Shown piece by piece: positions 53,151-59,777 of a DNA stretch of 64,000 bases. The notes beneath the pieces were generated by a model. The model was not told the DNA's origin. It searched no databases and was given only the letters and a program-made list of their open reading frames with translations. The position numbers and the translations under genes were made by a program. This DNA is from Actinomycetes bacterium (GTDB taxonomy: Bacteria > Actinomycetota > Acidimicrobiia > Acidimicrobiales > Acidimicrobilacustridaceae), in contig JAKOVH010000016.1 in assembly GCA_029782145.1 (NCBI GenBank), forward strand, positions 620,001 through 684,000. Reading direction: 5' to 3'. The number at the start of each line of letters is the position of its first letter. The stretch's first letter is position 1.

Positions 53151-53762
53151 TCAGCGGTCGGCGTCGGGGTCTTCGAGCGGGGGCAGGAAGTCCCACTTGA
53201 GGTCGCCGACGCGCACCAGCACCGAGGAGATCCAGCCGCCCATGGCGCTGAGGTGGTCGTCGAGCTGGGCGCCGTCGGCGAGGGTCGCCTCGTCGACCTC
53301 GTAGCTGCCCTCGTAGCTGACCTCGATGGCGTACTCCGGGCTCGACATGTCGCTCGGGTAGGCGGTCTCGACCGTGGGGCCCGAGCGCTCGAGGCGGTCG
53401 TGCCCGATGGCCGGGCTCATCTCCGGCAGCACCGCCAGCAACTCGGCGGGCTCCGGGGCCGAGGCCAGCCGCTGCACCCGCAGCACGATCTCGATGTCGA
53501 TGCGAGGCGGCTCGTCGAGGCTCTCGCCGATGTACCAGGAGCGATAGGCGGTCTGCGCCCAGGTCGGCCACGTGAGCGTGATGTCGGCCTGCACCCGCGG
53601 CGGGAGGCCTTCGCCGGGCAGCCCGTAGCTCGTCTCCCACGTCATGTCGCCGAGCAGCACGTCGGTGTGGAAGCGTTCCTCGAACGCCTGCCGCTCGAGC
53701 AGCGCACCCTCGAAGGCGTCGCGCAGCGCCCCGATGGCATCGGTGAAGACGTGGTCGAGCAC
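53151..53762 (-). CDS. Unknown conserved-looking protein, 203 aa
   Basis: No family recognised. It is a soluble, acidic protein without signal or membrane segments, mixed alpha/beta by eye: an N-terminal helix DHVFTDAIGALRDAFEGALL, an aromatic stretch TLTWPTWAQTAYRSWYIGES, an isoleucine/valine strand DIEIVLRVQRL, and a C-terminal VRVGDLKWDFLPPLEDPD. GTG 53762 is favoured by TAGGGT 7 nt upstream; a TTG at 53801 would add 13 residues. It follows the queuosine salvage gene on the same strand but behind a hairpin (53838-53881), so it has its own promoter. Confidence 0.65.
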   Translation of the reverse strand: MLDHVFTDAIGALRDAFEGALLERQAFEERFHTDVLLGDMTWETSYGLPGEGLPPRVQADITLTWPTWAQTAYRSWYIGESLDEPPRIDIEIVLRVQRLASAPEPAELLAVLPEMSPAIGHDRLERSGPTVETAYPSDMSSPEYAIEVSYEGSYEVDEATLADGAQLDDHLSAMGGWISSVLVRVGDLKWDFLPPLEDPDADR

Positions 53763-53887: not shown

Positions 53888-54877
53888 TCAGTAGAAGACC
53901 GAGCGGGTGCGGTGGCGGGGGACGGCCTTGTAGCGCGGCCCGCCGCCGCGGGTCCACAGCACCTGGTCGAGGTGCCAGGAGGGCACCTCGCGGCCCAGGT
54001 CGGACAGCGCGGCGCGCAGGCCCTCGACGGCGTGCACGCCGAGAGCGCGGATCTCGATCTCCTCGGCCGAGCCGGCCGCCAGCAGCTCCCCGTGGTCGAT
54101 GCGCTCGACGAGCTCGTCGTCGTAGGCGAGCACCCCGTCGAGGCGCAGCACGTGGGGAACCAGGTTGTCGGCGAAGGCGGTGAGCCGGGAGAGGTCGGCG
54201 AACCGTCCGAGGCCCTCCCCGCCGAAGGCTCGGTGCAGGTCGGCCGCCGCCAGCTGGGCCCGCTTGTAGAGCGGCACGTCGAAGCCGTCGTAGGTCGACA
54301 CGTCGCGGAAGAACGGCATCTCGGCGACCAGCTCGACCAGCGTCGCCGCTGATCCGTCCGCCGCCTCCACCAGGGCGGTGAACGAGCCGTCGTGGCGGTC
54401 GAGCACCAGATGGCCGAGGTCGTTCAGTGCGACCGTGAACAGCGCCATCAGCTCGTCGACGGGTCCGCCGTCGCGGGGCTGGTCGAAGATCTGGTGGGCG
54501 AGGTCGGTGTCGAGGCGGGCGAGCCGTTCGGGTCGCACCACGCTGTCGGTGGCCATCCATCGCCGGAGGCCGTTGGCCATGGTGCTGGCGCCCGACACTC
54601 CCGGGCGCTTGCGCACGACCGGGTGCCACCCCGAGCCGAAGTTGATGGTGGCCAGGGCCAGGACCCGGCCGGCGACGACCTCCGGATGAGCCGGCGGCTG
54701 GTCCCATGGGCCCGTCGCGCCCGGCCGTGACGGGTCGAGGGCGCCGTCGGCCAGCAGCTGGGCGGCGTAGGAGCCCACCCGCTCGGTGACGAGGTGCACG
54801 GACCGGGCCCGGCGGGCGACTTCGGCGGCGCCGGTGCGCACCGCGTCGAGCGGGTCGGTGCCGGCGGGCTCGTTCAA
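53888..54877 (-). CDS. DUF2419/Qng1-like queuosine salvage protein
   Basis: 329 aa. The queuosine salvage (DUF2419, C9orf64/Qng1) pattern is visible: LALATINFGSGWHPVVRKR, LHRAFGGEGLGRFADLSRLT, LTAFADNLVPHVLRLDGVLAY, EEIEIRALGVHAVEGLR and the C-terminal WHLDQVLWTRGGGP ... HRTRSVFY. Family enzymes release the base queuine from queuosine-5'-monophosphate, letting cells reuse it in tRNA. A QueF gene (59427-59777) in the same window supports queuosine metabolism. TTG start is uncertain; downstream GTG is possible. Divergent from the hexomutase gene. Confidence 0.82.
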   Translation of the reverse strand: MNEPAGTDPLDAVRTGAAEVARRARSVHLVTERVGSYAAQLLADGALDPSRPGATGPWDQPPAHPEVVAGRVLALATINFGSGWHPVVRKRPGVSGASTMANGLRRWMATDSVVRPERLARLDTDLAHQIFDQPRDGGPVDELMALFTVALNDLGHLVLDRHDGSFTALVEAADGSAATLVELVAEMPFFRDVSTYDGFDVPLYKRAQLAAADLHRAFGGEGLGRFADLSRLTAFADNLVPHVLRLDGVLAYDDELVERIDHGELLAAGSAEEIEIRALGVHAVEGLRAALSDLGREVPSWHLDQVLWTRGGGPRYKAVPRHRTRSVFY

Positions 54878-54938
54878 CCGGGTGGGTTCAACCGCGGGCG
54901 GGCGGCGGCACCGTGCTCACGGGCCACACTGTAGGGCC

Positions 54939-56708
54939 GTGGCCGCCCCCGAGCCCCCCGTACCGGACGCCGCAGCCGTGCCCGACGCCGCAGCCGTGCT
55001 CGACGACGCCGCTCTGCTCGCCGCCGCCGGCCGCTGGCGGGACCTCGACCCCGATCCGGCGGGCCGGACCGAGCTCGACGCGCTCGTGGCCGGATTCGAG
55101 GAGGGCGAGCGCGAGGGCCTGGTCGCAGCCTTCGCCGGGCGGGTGCGGCTGGGCACCGCCGGGCTGCGCGCCCCGATGGGCCCCGGCCCCGCCCGCATGA
55201 ACCGCCTGGTGGTGCGTCGAGCCACCGCCGCGCTGGTGTCGCTGCTGCCCGAGGACGCCACGGTGGTGGTCGGCCACGACGCCCGCCGCGGCTCCGAGCA
55301 GTTCGCCGCCGACGCCGCCGGGGTGGTGGCGGGCAGCGGGCGCCGACCGGTGCTGCTCGCCGGGTCGGTGCCCACGCCGGTGCTGGCGTTCGCCGTGCGC
55401 CGCCTCGGCGCGGCCGCCGGCGTGATGGTCACCGCCTCCCACAACCCGGCGTCGGACAACGGCTTCAAGGTGTACCTGGCCGACGGTGCCCAGATCGGAC
55501 CGCCCGACGAGGAGCGCCTGGCGTCCGCGCTGGTGGAGGTGGCCGATCGCCATGACACCGGCGACCCCTCGGTGGTGCCCTGGGGGAGCTCCCCGGTGGC
55601 GCCCGATCCGGCGGCCACGGCCGAGCTGGCCGGGGCCTACGTCTCGGTGCTGGCCGGACACCTGGCGCCCGGACCCCGTGACGCCACGCTGGCCTACACG
55701 GCGCTGCACGGCGTGGGTCGGGCGCTCACCGAGCGGGCCTTCGCCGCCGCCGGCTTCGCGCCGCTGGCCGAGGTGGCCGAGCAGTGCGAGCCCGACGGCT
55801 CGTTCCCCACCGTCGAGCTGCCCAACCCCGAGGAGCCCGGCGCCCTCGACCGCCTGGTCGCCCGGGCGGCCGACGTGGGCGCCGACGTCGGCATCGCCCA
55901 CGACCCCGACGCCGACCGGCTCGGCGTGGTCGTGCCACGGGGCGGCACCTGGCGGCGGCTCACCGGCGACGAGGTCGGCGTCCTGCTCGCCGACCACCTG
56001 CTCCGGCAGGGGCAGGGCGTGGACCGCCTGGTGGTGCGCACCATCGTCTCGTCCCGCCTGCTCGACGCGGTGGCGGCCCACCACGGCGTCACGTCGGTCG
56101 CCACCCTCACCGGCTTCAAGCACGTGATGGCGGCCGCTCGGGCCCGGCCCGAGCTGCGGTTCGTCTTCGGCTACGAGGAGGCCCTCGGCTTCGCCGTGGG
56201 TGACGAGGTCCGTGACAAGGACGGCATCGCCGCCGCGCTGGTGATGGCCGACCTGGTGGCTCGGCTCCGAGCCGAGGGCCGTACCCTCGACGACCGCCTC
56301 GACGAGCTGGCCCTGCGCCATGGCGTGCACGTCTCGCAGAGCCGGTCGTCGCGCTTCGAGGGCCTCGACGGCGAGGCTCGGCGGGCCGACGCCGTCGCCC
56401 GGCTGCGGTCGGACCCGCCCGCCGAGCTGGCCGGTCGCCCGGTGCTCGCGGTGGTCGACCACCTGCGCGCGGCGGCGCCGGCGGCCCGCTCCGACGTGGT
56501 GGTCCTGGAGCTCGGGTCGGGGGCGTGGATGGCCGTGCGACCGAGCGGCACCGAGCCCAAGCTGAAGGTCTACGCCGAGGTCGTGGAGCCCCTCACGGAG
56601 GGTGACCTCCAGGCGGCGCGGCGGGCGGGCGTGGAGCGCCTCTCGGTCCTCCACGACGCCCTCGCGGCCCGCCTCGGGTTCCCCGGTGGGGGTCAGGGCC
56701 TCGGCTAG
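54939..56708 (+). CDS. Phosphohexomutase (phosphoglucomutase/phosphomannomutase, PGM2-like)
   Basis: 589 aa alpha-D-phosphohexomutase. Order of sites: substrate loop GTAGLRAPMGPGPARMNRLV, phosphoserine loop MVTASHNPASDNGFKVY, metal loop IAHDPDADRLGVVV, sugar loop YEEALGFAVGDEVRDKDG, and phosphate-binding VRPSGTEPKLKVY. The early GTAGLR and the long C-terminal part match the PGM2-like/PgcA branch, which works on glucose- or mannose-1-phosphate or pentose phosphates. GTG start with CACACT 8 nt upstream. Residues 9-20 are a PDAAAV duplication from an 18-bp repeat. Confidence 0.9.
   Translation: MAAPEPPVPDAAAVPDAAAVLDDAALLAAAGRWRDLDPDPAGRTELDALVAGFEEGEREGLVAAFAGRVRLGTAGLRAPMGPGPARMNRLVVRRATAALVSLLPEDATVVVGHDARRGSEQFAADAAGVVAGSGRRPVLLAGSVPTPVLAFAVRRLGAAAGVMVTASHNPASDNGFKVYLADGAQIGPPDEERLASALVEVADRHDTGDPSVVPWGSSPVAPDPAATAELAGAYVSVLAGHLAPGPRDATLAYTALHGVGRALTERAFAAAGFAPLAEVAEQCEPDGSFPTVELPNPEEPGALDRLVARAADVGADVGIAHDPDADRLGVVVPRGGTWRRLTGDEVGVLLADHLLRQGQGVDRLVVRTIVSSRLLDAVAAHHGVTSVATLTGFKHVMAAARARPELRFVFGYEEALGFAVGDEVRDKDGIAAALVMADLVARLRAEGRTLDDRLDELALRHGVHVSQSRSSRFEGLDGEARRADAVARLRSDPPAELAGRPVLAVVDHLRAAAPAARSDVVVLELGSGAWMAVRPSGTEPKLKVYAEVVEPLTEGDLQAARRAGVERLSVLHDALAARLGFPGGGQGLG
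54963..54998 (+). repeat. 18-bp tandem duplication inside the hexomutase gene
   Basis: Two copies, differing by one base, of CCGGACGCCGCAGCCGTG encode PDAAAV twice near the N-terminus, before the conserved domain. It is a length-variable, probably neutral repeat. Confidence 0.7.
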
Positions 56709-56797: not shown

Positions 56798-58234
56798 ATG
56801 CTGTTCCCCACCGTCGACTTCGCGGTCTTCTTCGTGGTGGTCTTCACGGTCAGCTGGCTCACCCGCCCCTACAAGCGGCTGTGGCGATGGGTCATCCTCA
56901 GCGCCAGCTGCGTGTTCTACGGCTGGTGGGACTGGCACTACCTGTTCCTGCTGCTCGGCAGCGCGGCGATCAACTGGGCGTTCGGCCGGGCGGTCTACCG
57001 GGCGCTCACGCCCGACGGGCAGCGCACCGAGGCCAGCAAGTGGCTGGTGCGGGCCGCGGTGGTCGTGAACCTCGGGGTGCTCGGCTACTTCAAGTACTTC
57101 GAGTTCTTCGCCACCACCATCGCGGACCGGCTGCGCAGCCTCGGCATGTCGGTCGACCCGCCGGTGCTGAACATCGTGCTGCCCGTGGGCATCTCGTTCT
57201 TCACCTTCCAGGCCATCAGCTACGTCATCGACATCGGGCGGGGGGAGTGGCGCCGCCCCCTGCCGCTGCTCGACTTCGCCGTCTACCTCTCGTTCTTCGC
57301 CCACCTGGTGGCCGGCCCCATCGTGCGGGCCAGCGAGTTCGCGCCCCAGCTCGACCACGACCCCGACCCCCGCTACGTGCGGTCGTCCGAGGCGTTCATG
57401 CTCATCTTCCGGGGCATGTTCAAGAAGGTCGTGATCTCGAGCTTCCTCGCCTCGCAGATCGTCGACCCCGTCTTCGCCCTGCCCGGCGCCTACGGCCGCT
57501 GGGAGGTGCTGTGGGCGATCTACGCCTACGCCATCCAGATCTACGCCGACTTCAGCGGCTACACCGACATCGCCATCGGGGTGGCCCTGCTGCTCGGCGT
57601 GCGGTTCCCACAGAACTTCGACGCCCCCTACCGGTCGCTGTCGCTGCAGGACTTCTGGCGCCGATGGCACATGACGCTGTCGAGGTGGCTGCGCGACTAC
57701 CTCTACATCCCCCTCGGCGGCAACCGGGGCTCGAAGCTGTTCACCTACCGGAACCTCTTCCTGGTGATGCTCATCGGCGGCCTGTGGCACGGCGCCAACT
57801 GGACCTTCGTGGTGTGGGGTGCCATCCACGGCGGCTACCTGGTGGGCGAGCGGGTCGTGAAGGAGAAGTGGAAGGGCCGCGAGCTCGGCCTGCCGCCCCA
57901 GGTGGTCAAGGTCCTCCAGTGGGTCCTGACCTTCAACGTGGTGTGCCTGGCGTGGGTGTTCTTCCGGGCCCAGTCGGTGGACGGCGCCTTCGACGTGCTG
58001 GGGCGGCTCTTCAGCGGCGGGGGCAAGACCTCCGACGTCACCCTGCTGTTGATGCTCGTGGTGGTGCTGAGCATCGCCTCGCAGTTCGTCCCGTCCCGGG
58101 TGCCCGAGCAGGCCGAGGCCTGGTTCGGCAAGCTGGCCCCGGCGCTGCAGATGGCGGCGCTGGCCGGCGGCCTCGTCCTGGTCGACGCCCTCGGCCCCGA
58201 GGGCATCGCCCCGTTCATCTACTTCCAGTTCTGA
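56798..58234 (+). CDS. MBOAT-family O-acyltransferase (AlgI-like)
   Basis: 478 aa, ~10 membrane helices. AlgI/DltB-like signature: FYGWWDWHYLFLL, VLPVGISFFTFQAISYVID, FFAHLVAGPIVRASEF, YADFSGYTDIAIGVALLLG, FWRRWHMTLSRWLRDYLYIP and LWHGANWTFVVWGAIHG with the catalytic His331 and His344. It should carry acyl groups across the membrane to a polysaccharide or wall polymer. Only a weak binding site lies before the ATG. The SGNH protein 49 bp downstream is its natural secreted partner, like AlgJ/AlgX or PatB. Confidence 0.92.
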   Translation: MLFPTVDFAVFFVVVFTVSWLTRPYKRLWRWVILSASCVFYGWWDWHYLFLLLGSAAINWAFGRAVYRALTPDGQRTEASKWLVRAAVVVNLGVLGYFKYFEFFATTIADRLRSLGMSVDPPVLNIVLPVGISFFTFQAISYVIDIGRGEWRRPLPLLDFAVYLSFFAHLVAGPIVRASEFAPQLDHDPDPRYVRSSEAFMLIFRGMFKKVVISSFLASQIVDPVFALPGAYGRWEVLWAIYAYAIQIYADFSGYTDIAIGVALLLGVRFPQNFDAPYRSLSLQDFWRRWHMTLSRWLRDYLYIPLGGNRGSKLFTYRNLFLVMLIGGLWHGANWTFVVWGAIHGGYLVGERVVKEKWKGRELGLPPQVVKVLQWVLTFNVVCLAWVFFRAQSVDGAFDVLGRLFSGGGKTSDVTLLLMLVVVLSIASQFVPSRVPEQAEAWFGKLAPALQMAALAGGLVLVDALGPEGIAPFIYFQF

Positions 58235-58283: not shown

Positions 58284-59420
58284 ATGACCGCCCCCCGCCC
58301 CATGGCTCCCGTGCCCCGCAAGCCGCGGTCGAGCTTCAGCTGGCGGTCGCTGTTCCGGCCGTTCAGGGCCCGGCAGGAGGGCACCATGCCGGCGGGCCTG
58401 GTGCTGGTCCTCGTGCTCGGCGCCCTGCTGATCGCCATGTTCCTCAACGCCGACGCCACCCTGCGCAAGAGCGAGGCCAAGGGCGACGGGTGGCGCAACG
58501 AGGTGGCCCAGGGCGTGGCCGACGTGAGCGACGCCCTGCGCCTGAACCTGCTGCGCAAGGGCGTCGACGACGCCCTCGGCAAGAACCAGGGCACCGACGT
58601 CGACGTGCAGGAGCTGCTCGCCCAGCAGGAGGCGGCCTCGGCCGAGGCGCCGCCGGCACCGGTGCTGCCGGAGATCCCCGCGCCGACGCCGGAGGCCAAG
58701 CTGCGCTTCTGGGTCGGCGGCGACTCCATCACCGAGACCTTCGGCACGTCCATGCAGCGCGTCGCCGCCTCCACCGGCGTGATCGACCCCACACTCGACT
58801 ACCACGTCTCCACCGGCCTGGCCCGCCCCGACTACTTCAACTGGCCCGAGTACCTCGTCAAGAGCGTCCTGCCCAACGACCCGCAGGTCATGGTGATCAT
58901 GTTCGGGGCCAACGACGGGCAGAACATGACCGTCGACGGCAAGGCCCTGCAGCGCGGTTCGCCGGAGTGGCTCGAGGAGTACCGGCGACGGGTCGGGGCC
59001 ACCATGGACCTGCTCAAGGACCCGGAGAACGACCGGCTCGTCGTCTGGGTCGGCGCCCCGGTCATGCGGCCGGGCTCGGGCGTCCACGAGATGGACCAGC
59101 TCGACTACATCTACTGGTCCGAGGCCAGGAGTCGACCCTGGATCCAGTACTTCGACTCCTGGCCGTTCTTCTCCGACGCCGACCTGCAGTACGTCAGCGA
59201 GGCGCCCAACGCCGACGGCGTGGCCCGGGGACTGCGCCAGAAGGACGGCGTGCACCTCTCGACCGTCGGCGGCAATCGTCTGTCGTGGGCCGTGCTGGGG
59301 CGCATGGGGGAGTACGTCGACCTGTCCGCCGGCAAGGTCGCCCCGCCGGCCGACCAGGCCCCGCCGCCGGGCATCGTGGAGCGCACCGAGATCCCGCCCG
59401 AGGTGCCGGGGGCCGAGTAG
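58284..59420 (+). CDS. Membrane-anchored SGNH hydrolase-type protein (DUF459-like)
   Basis: 378 aa. A basic N-terminus and one membrane helix (about 36-55, MPAGLVLVLVLGALLIAMF) put the rest outside. SGNH blocks: FWVGGDSITETFG (nucleophile Ser), VMVIMFGANDGQNM, and the DGVHLSTVGGNRL His end block. The family cleaves or transfers O-acyl groups on sugars. Together with MBOAT it forms a probable O-acetylation pair. Its stop is 6 bp from the convergent queF stop. Confidence 0.87.
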   Translation: MTAPRPMAPVPRKPRSSFSWRSLFRPFRARQEGTMPAGLVLVLVLGALLIAMFLNADATLRKSEAKGDGWRNEVAQGVADVSDALRLNLLRKGVDDALGKNQGTDVDVQELLAQQEAASAEAPPAPVLPEIPAPTPEAKLRFWVGGDSITETFGTSMQRVAASTGVIDPTLDYHVSTGLARPDYFNWPEYLVKSVLPNDPQVMVIMFGANDGQNMTVDGKALQRGSPEWLEEYRRRVGATMDLLKDPENDRLVVWVGAPVMRPGSGVHEMDQLDYIYWSEARSRPWIQYFDSWPFFSDADLQYVSEAPNADGVARGLRQKDGVHLSTVGGNRLSWAVLGRMGEYVDLSAGKVAPPADQAPPPGIVERTEIPPEVPGAE

Positions 59421-59426
59421 CGGGCC

Positions 59427-59777
59427 TCAGGGGTGCGACGCGGTGACGGTGGTGGTGATGCCGCCCCGGACCTTCCAGACGGTCTCCACCGTCATGCGCC
59501 GGGGCAGGGTGGCTCGGACCAGGTCGTCGAGGATCTGGTTGGTGACGGCCTCGTGGAAGGCGCCCTCGTCGCGGTAGCTCCAGAGGTACATCTTCAGGCT
59601 CTTCAGCTCCACCAGCAGCTCGTCGGGCACGTAGGTGATGCGCACCGTGGCGAAGTCGGGCTGGCCGGTGACCGGGCACAGGCAGGTCAGCTCGTCGGTC
59701 TCGCAGCGGACCTCGTAGTCGCGCCCCGGCTCGGGGTTGGCGACGGTGACGAGCTCCTTGGACGGTTGGCTGGGCAC
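59427..59777 (-). CDS. queF: NADPH-dependent 7-cyano-7-deazaguanine reductase
   Basis: 116 aa unimodular T-fold QueF that reduces preQ0 to preQ1 in queuosine biosynthesis. Catalytic Cys34 in [14 protein letters not shown] with Asp41, the QueF motif [13 protein letters not shown] (57-69) for NADPH binding, and His75-Glu76 in [13 protein letters not shown] for substrate. It is shorter than B. subtilis QueF (165 aa), mainly at the N-terminus. GTG start with TAGGAT 7 nt upstream. QueC/D/E and Tgt are not in the window. Confidence 0.93.

Follow-up and report, generated by a model that had tools for sequence, protein, structure and literature searches.

A gene for a probable Qng1-type N-glycosidase in an acidimicrobial bacterium with a predicted complete queuosine pathway and a preQ1-type TGT

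Enzymes of the Qng1 family (DUF2419) cleave queuosine-5'-monophosphate (Q-5'-MP) to queuine and ribose-5-phosphate, and they are usually described as salvage enzymes of organisms that depend on queuosine from outside. The solved structures used here for comparison (PDB 7u07, 7u91, 7ulc, 7u5a and 7ugk) are those of human QNG1 and of a bacterial enzyme, which we take to be that of Sphaerobacter thermophilus. Other ways of handling queuine are described in the cited sections of two papers. In the Chlamydia trachomatis-type system, queuine is inserted directly, and in the Clostridioides difficile-type system, QueK frees queuine, QueL takes part in its salvage and the TGT uses preQ1 (PMC11570991). 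According to the same sections, queuine-using TGTs typically carry the pocket GG[LS][AS]G and the E. coli-type enzymes GGLAVG, the valine of which may exclude queuine. In Acidobacteriota, qng1 has a ureide permease gene as its neighbour (PMC11130926).

The locus studied here lies in a stretch of 64,000 nucleotides (the window) from an acidimicrobial genome. The product of its qng1 gene resembles the solved bacterial and human enzymes in Pfam family, fold, catalytic Lys and Asp and a near full-length alignment, but its setting is not the usual one of a salvage enzyme, as the host is predicted to make queuosine itself. As in the Chlamydia trachomatis-type system, queuine would be present in the cell; however, the window genome encodes a V-type TGT (GGLSVG) together with all steps of the de novo route. 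The likeness to the Clostridioides difficile-type system is that a hydrolase would free queuine while the TGT uses preQ1, but here the hydrolase is Qng1, whose family is unrelated to QueK according to the cited part of PMC11130926. As in the Acidobacteriota, genome context ties qng1 to a transporter, although in several of the relatives this neighbour is a PnrA/Bmp-type ABC importer and not a ureide permease.

The qng1 gene occupies positions 53888..54877 on the minus strand and encodes a protein of 329 aa from a TTG start. The protein matched the Q_salvage family PF10343 with an E value of 2.8e-55, scoring 188 bits where the gathering cut-off is 25. This was the single match to the family in the entire genome, and a search of 14 control genomes with the same model gave no match. 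The phmmer search of the PDB with the protein found five distinct sequences, all of them Qng1/DUF2419 proteins (best E 5.3e-37). AlphaFold was run on a nine-row alignment in which the window protein was joined by eight acidimicrobial relatives, and the resulting model had a mean pLDDT of 87.5. At E <= 0.001, Foldseek returned 11 matches for this model, including 7uk3 and 7u91; all were Qng1/DUF2419 structures, and the TM scores by query length were 0.83–0.86. According to its PDB title, 7u91 is a Qng1 complex with Q-5'-MP. The first-pass annotation had read this gene as a DUF2419 hydrolase, and both the Pfam match and the Qng1 fold bear this out.

The PDB titles also name two mutants, K199C (7u5a) and D231N (7ulc). 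In the phmmer alignments, the letter changed in K199C stands opposite K205 of the window protein and the one changed in D231N opposite D237. Thus, the catalytic Asp, on which the first-pass annotation had made its identification depend, is present. The catalytic Lys and Asp were kept in all 107 aligned Qng1 rows (102 of them different), most of which had been collected by the motifs of the subfamily described below.

Three blocks of letters set the window protein apart from the solved enzymes. The nine aligned acidimicrobial Qng1 proteins share NFGSG[WY] (AFGSG in two), DNLVPH starting from the catalytic Asp and RHR near the C-terminus, and the window protein itself reads NFGSGW and ADNLVPHVL. 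At these sites, NFCFW, ADYKVPQ and PYHR are found in the solved bacterial enzyme and NFSFW, ADYRLPQ and PFHR in human QNG1, so that NFGSG[WY], DNLVPH and RHR stand against NF[CS]FW, DY[KR][VL]PQ and [YF]HR. The motifs of the two solved enzymes, NF[CS]FW and ADY[KR][VL]PQVL, are absent from the window protein. By these letters, the FGSG/DNLVPH proteins form a clearly marked bacterial Qng1 subfamily apart from the solved enzymes, and this subfamily seems to be new.

A genome collection described as covering 84,980 species was scanned with the subfamily patterns. The scan yielded 417 encoded relatives, and the 80 that were retained come from Chloroflexota, Desulfobacterales, Myxococcota, Acidobacteriota, Planctomycetota and others. 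It should be noted that these 80 named loci were collected with F[AP]DNLVPH and [VIL][NA]FGSG, so motif counts among them are biased, while the sets collected by Pfam alone (10 and 17 qng1 genomes) are free of this bias. The distribution of qng1 is patchy: it was found in 10 of the 61 genomes of the relatives search, and PF10343 was matched in 27 of 396 actinobacterial genomes (25 above the cut-off), the genome of the window being included in both counts. Twenty of the 25 proteins above the cut-off belong to the FGSG/DNLVPH subfamily and five to a third form, and the motif of the solved enzymes was found in none of the 25.

The third form carries FAFTDF, [HY]KL[AP]Q and ADYIVPV (L161–L165, from genomes G423, G103, G435, G287 and G332). 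Four of these genomes have a V-type TGT with queA adjacent to it, and G287 gave no TGT match at all, so the third form may not serve queuosine there. A further genome, G353, has two copies of the subfamily gene (L181 and L185); the second keeps FGSG but deviates in the letters surrounding it (QRPGGFG), and its RHR is replaced by AHR.

Since neither solved Qng1 enzyme shares the signature letters that follow the catalytic Asp or those of the N-terminal half and the C-terminal region, the substrate could differ as well. The subfamily might, for example, act on a preQ1 or preQ0 nucleotide and feed preQ1 or preQ0 to TGT and QueF. The three subfamily-specific blocks, one of them directly following the catalytic Asp, would fit such a change, as would the TGT of the window genome, which is of the preQ1 type. 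A similar hint comes from a qng1 of the Acidobacteriota, whose neighbouring ureide permease imports preQ0/preQ1 and not Q, a result that the authors had not expected (PMC11130926, cited sections).

The evidence on the other side comes from further actinobacterial lineages. Seventeen of the 20 subfamily-bearing genomes are from f73, f94 and f65, which are other actinobacterial families, and the TGT of every one of them is without V, its pocket being GGSLG in 16 and GGTLG in one (G388). Of the five letters of GG[LS][AS]G, the first of these pockets matches four and has G in the place of the V of the preQ1 enzymes, and the second matches three. When about 1.5 kb on either side of tgt in these genomes was searched with the QueA of the window genome as a query, queA was found in none of the 17; one flank was ended by a contig end and 8 of the 17 loci were read to about 5 kb. 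In the same comparison, all seven V-type tgt loci, four of them from third-form genomes, had a flanking queA. As tgt and queA are separated by about 2.4 kb in the window genome, flanks of 1.5 kb can miss it and the test is a partial one. By these pocket letters and flanks, the 17 genomes look like queuine salvagers that would need qng1, which supports the view that the FGSG/DNLVPH subfamily would free queuine. The finding of these genomes lowered the weight of the altered motifs as the sole sign of a different substrate, and we now regard another substrate as quite improbable.

The first-pass annotation had pointed to queC, queD, queE, tgt, queA and queG as the genes that bear on the role of qng1. 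All of them, as well as queF, were found in the window genome above the NCBIfam equivalog cut-offs (QueE, TIGR04508; QueC, TIGR00364; QueD, TIGR03367; QueF, TIGR03139; QueA, NF001140 and TIGR00113; Tgt, TIGR00430; QueG, TIGR00276). In the genome searches, tgt and queA were each found once, along with a strong match for queC, with queF, queD and a queG; queE adjoins queC. With this full de novo gene set, the organism is a predicted queuosine prototroph. It does not have the profile of a queuine-salvaging, tgt-only organism, as the synthesis genes are present and the TGT pocket is GGLSVG.

The comparison was extended to 20 genomes, namely all 10 qng1-bearing ones and 10 picked by hand from 51 relatives lacking qng1. 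Among the 10 qng1-bearing genomes (the window genome included), tgt and queA were found in all, queF and queD in nine each and a strong queC in eight. The queC match of G008 was weak only, and G054 gave no queC, queD or queF match and has the QPTR transporter (PF02592). QueG was matched by PF08331, a short model of 77 positions, in 5 of the 10 genomes, above the cut-off in four; the second QueG model, TIGR00276, was applied to the window genome only. No queH match was obtained in any of the 20 genomes, the window genome included, and QPTR was found in 2 of the 20. In four small genomes of one genus (g12; G012, G016, G018 and G026), queC, queF, tgt and queA were found and queD gave no match, so a different enzyme may perform the QueD step there.

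The closeness of qng1 to queF had suggested in the first-pass annotation that QueF might serve preQ0 salvage. The distance itself was confirmed: queF lies at 59427..59777 on the minus strand, encodes a protein of 116 aa and passes the QueF-II model TIGR03139 with 156.9 bits (cut-off, 86.9), leaving a gap of about 4.55 kb between the two genes. That a cell unable to make preQ0 would use QueF to salvage it has this proximity of 4.5 kb in its favour, but it is contradicted by the gene content, since queD, queE and queC are all above the cut-offs and QPTR was not found in the window genome. With the route to preQ0 complete, we rejected QueF as a preQ0-salvage enzyme here and consider such a role extremely improbable.

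The gap between qng1 and queF is occupied by three genes on the plus strand. These are a phosphoglucomutase/phosphomannomutase-like gene divergent from qng1 (54786..56708), an MBOAT acyltransferase gene (56798..58234) and a DUF459 gene (58284..59420). The mutase-like open reading frame overlaps qng1 as listed, so its true start is probably further in. Because these three genes of the opposite strand intervene, qng1 and queF do not form an operon. On the other side, 3' of qng1, lies a highly conserved gene on the minus strand (53151..53762, the start at about 53762 being taken from relatives), which has no Pfam or NCBIfam match; it is found 3' of qng1 in several relatives too and is kept where qng1 is absent.

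In family f1, qng1 and queF stand on one strand about 3.3–6.5 kb apart (distances between the ends of tblastn matches) in six of the eight qng1-bearing genomes (G000, G003, G005, G007, G008 and G010). In G001, the two genes are on two contigs whose ends would suit the same order, and in G006, qng1 is on a different contig from queF and has other neighbours. Two genomes without qng1 (G004 and G016) retain the conserved downstream gene, MBOAT, DUF459 and queF, with genes in between, and a third (G014) retains the conserved downstream gene and queF with no genes between them. In other families, qng1 adjoins the conserved gene while queF is on another contig (G048), or it is divergent from a sugar mutase gene in a genome without a queF match (G054). 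As the block is kept in relatives, in part without qng1, and qng1 also occurs elsewhere without queF, the two genes seem to be close through an inherited gene order and not as an operon, and a functional cluster of qng1 and queF was rejected. No preQ1 riboswitch was found at Rfam gathering scores in the window or at L057, L073 and L077; the sole match was a tRNA in L077.

The fate of the freed base was considered from the pocket of TGT. The TGT of the window genome has GGLSVG, and the same pocket was read in all 10 qng1-bearing acidimicrobial genomes. Together with five relatives lacking qng1, of which four have GGLSVG and one (G049) GGFSVG, 15 acidimicrobial TGTs were read, 14 of them with GGLSVG and all with the V. 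By the pocket rule, the window TGT is of the preQ1 type, and freed queuine is thus without a known easy way back. Since the preQ1-type pocket is kept, little or none of the queuine would probably be re-inserted into tRNA.

True recycling would require that queuine return to tRNA by one of two routes, either through a TGT that accepts queuine at its intracellular concentrations or through a QueL-like lyase that converts it to preQ1. Both have a precedent in the cited sections of PMC11570991: with raised concentrations of queuine, the V-type TGT of B. henselae, expressed together with its transporter, was able to use it, so re-insertion could still take place, and the QueL route has been described. 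An intact qng1 in a predicted prototroph, with the catalytic K and D in every aligned row, also fits recycling, but the V kept in the pocket of all the acidimicrobial TGTs read argues against it. We consider recycling rather unlikely. The first-pass annotation had proposed that the cell both makes and recycles the base; the genes for making it and for freeing it are there, and it is the recycling that the preQ1-like pocket GGLSVG speaks against.

Thus, we think it fairly probable that qng1 encodes a working Qng1-type N-glycosidase in a queuosine prototroph, where it would convert Q-5'-MP to queuine for turnover or clearance with little re-insertion. This reading builds on the computed family, fold, catalytic residues, complete pathway and TGT pocket letters, from which we infer what reaction takes place and on which substrate and, most of all, what becomes of queuine. 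As the cell is a predicted prototroph (queDECF, tgt, queA and queG), Qng1 would not be needed to obtain queuosine. Q-5'-MP would arise from tRNA breakdown or from an imported nucleoside after phosphorylation, and Qng1 would cleave it to queuine and ribose-5-phosphate. Its role would be the turnover or clearance of Q nucleotides, in which the ribose phosphate is recovered and queuine is released. Queuine would then be cleared or exported; its re-insertion by TGT or its conversion to preQ1 by a lyase would be less likely.

The import of a nucleoside was considered from the neighbours of qng1 at the 80 named loci. Neighbouring open reading frames were called by a base-composition rule, at most two per side, those of at least 700 aa being left out. 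Among the 138 downstream reading frames, the two commonest families were PF02608 (Bmp/PnrA-like) and SBP_bac_3 with eight each, and ABC_tran was found seven times. Bmp and ABC-transporter genes stand beside qng1 at 9 of the 80 loci, one of which is doubtful. At eight of them (L090, L109, L119, L124, L126, L144, L146 and L157), the Bmp gene follows qng1 directly in the same orientation, and at L133, the Bmp/ABC set is on the opposite strand, facing qng1. The doubtful locus is L126, where two overlapping Bmp reading frames of opposite strands lie near a contig end, perhaps by an assembly fault, and no ATPase reading frame was seen. The permease genes at the Bmp loci were recognised from sequence cluster and position only. 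For the Bmp proteins encoded at L146 and L119, the structural matches include lipoproteins such as TmpC (2fqw), which we take to be of the PnrA type.

A quick IQ-TREE tree of the 107 Qng1 rows, with SH-aLRT supports only, was used to follow this pairing. The Bmp neighbour required three changes on the tree, all three forced by starred branches, and the mean for shuffled labels was 8.7. Seven of the Bmp loci form one clade. Since L090 and L146 stand outside it, three gains are the simplest reading of how the pairing arose in this tree, although one gain and two losses would also fit. The window qng1 belongs to a clade of 11 rows (support 99) inside a group of 24 rows (support 91) that holds eight of the nine Bmp loci; beside the window gene itself, there is no Bmp/ABC importer. 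Tentatively, the subfamily and its PnrA/Bmp ABC importers may serve the uptake of queuosine or other 7-deazaguanine nucleosides followed by release of the base, even in queuosine makers, a role that we regard as possible but somewhat doubtful. Queuosine transporters in most organisms have yet to be identified according to the cited sections of PMC11130926; an ABC transporter (PF00005) appears in Table 1 there as a candidate, and the term "Bmp" is absent from the main text. Our limited literature search found no report that links queuosine to a PnrA/Bmp importer.

Two kinds of upstream neighbour were also seen. At six Myxococcota-type loci (L129, L137, L102, L104, L132 and L147), a DAG-kinase-like gene (PF00781 and YegS_C; six upstream reading frames in the tally) lies directly 5' of qng1 at a distance of 3–24 bases, and it could encode a kinase partner of Qng1. 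At L109, L119, L124 and L144, a reading frame of 103–110 aa ends a few bases from the start of qng1 or overlaps it. Four upstream reading frames match the ABM monooxygenase family, and they are probably these short ones.

The Qng1 family and its function are already known. What seems to be new is the presence of the FGSG/DNLVPH subfamily in a predicted queuosine maker that has the complete pathway and a preQ1-type TGT, in contrast to the lineages with GG[ST]LG TGTs, as well as the repeated pairing of this subfamily with PnrA-like importers. The pairing with a nucleoside-type ABC importer provides a named candidate for queuosine uptake. The contrast between the TGT types raises the question of what bacteria do with the queuine from their own tRNA and, further, whether such bacteria are a source of the queuine needed by eukaryotes.
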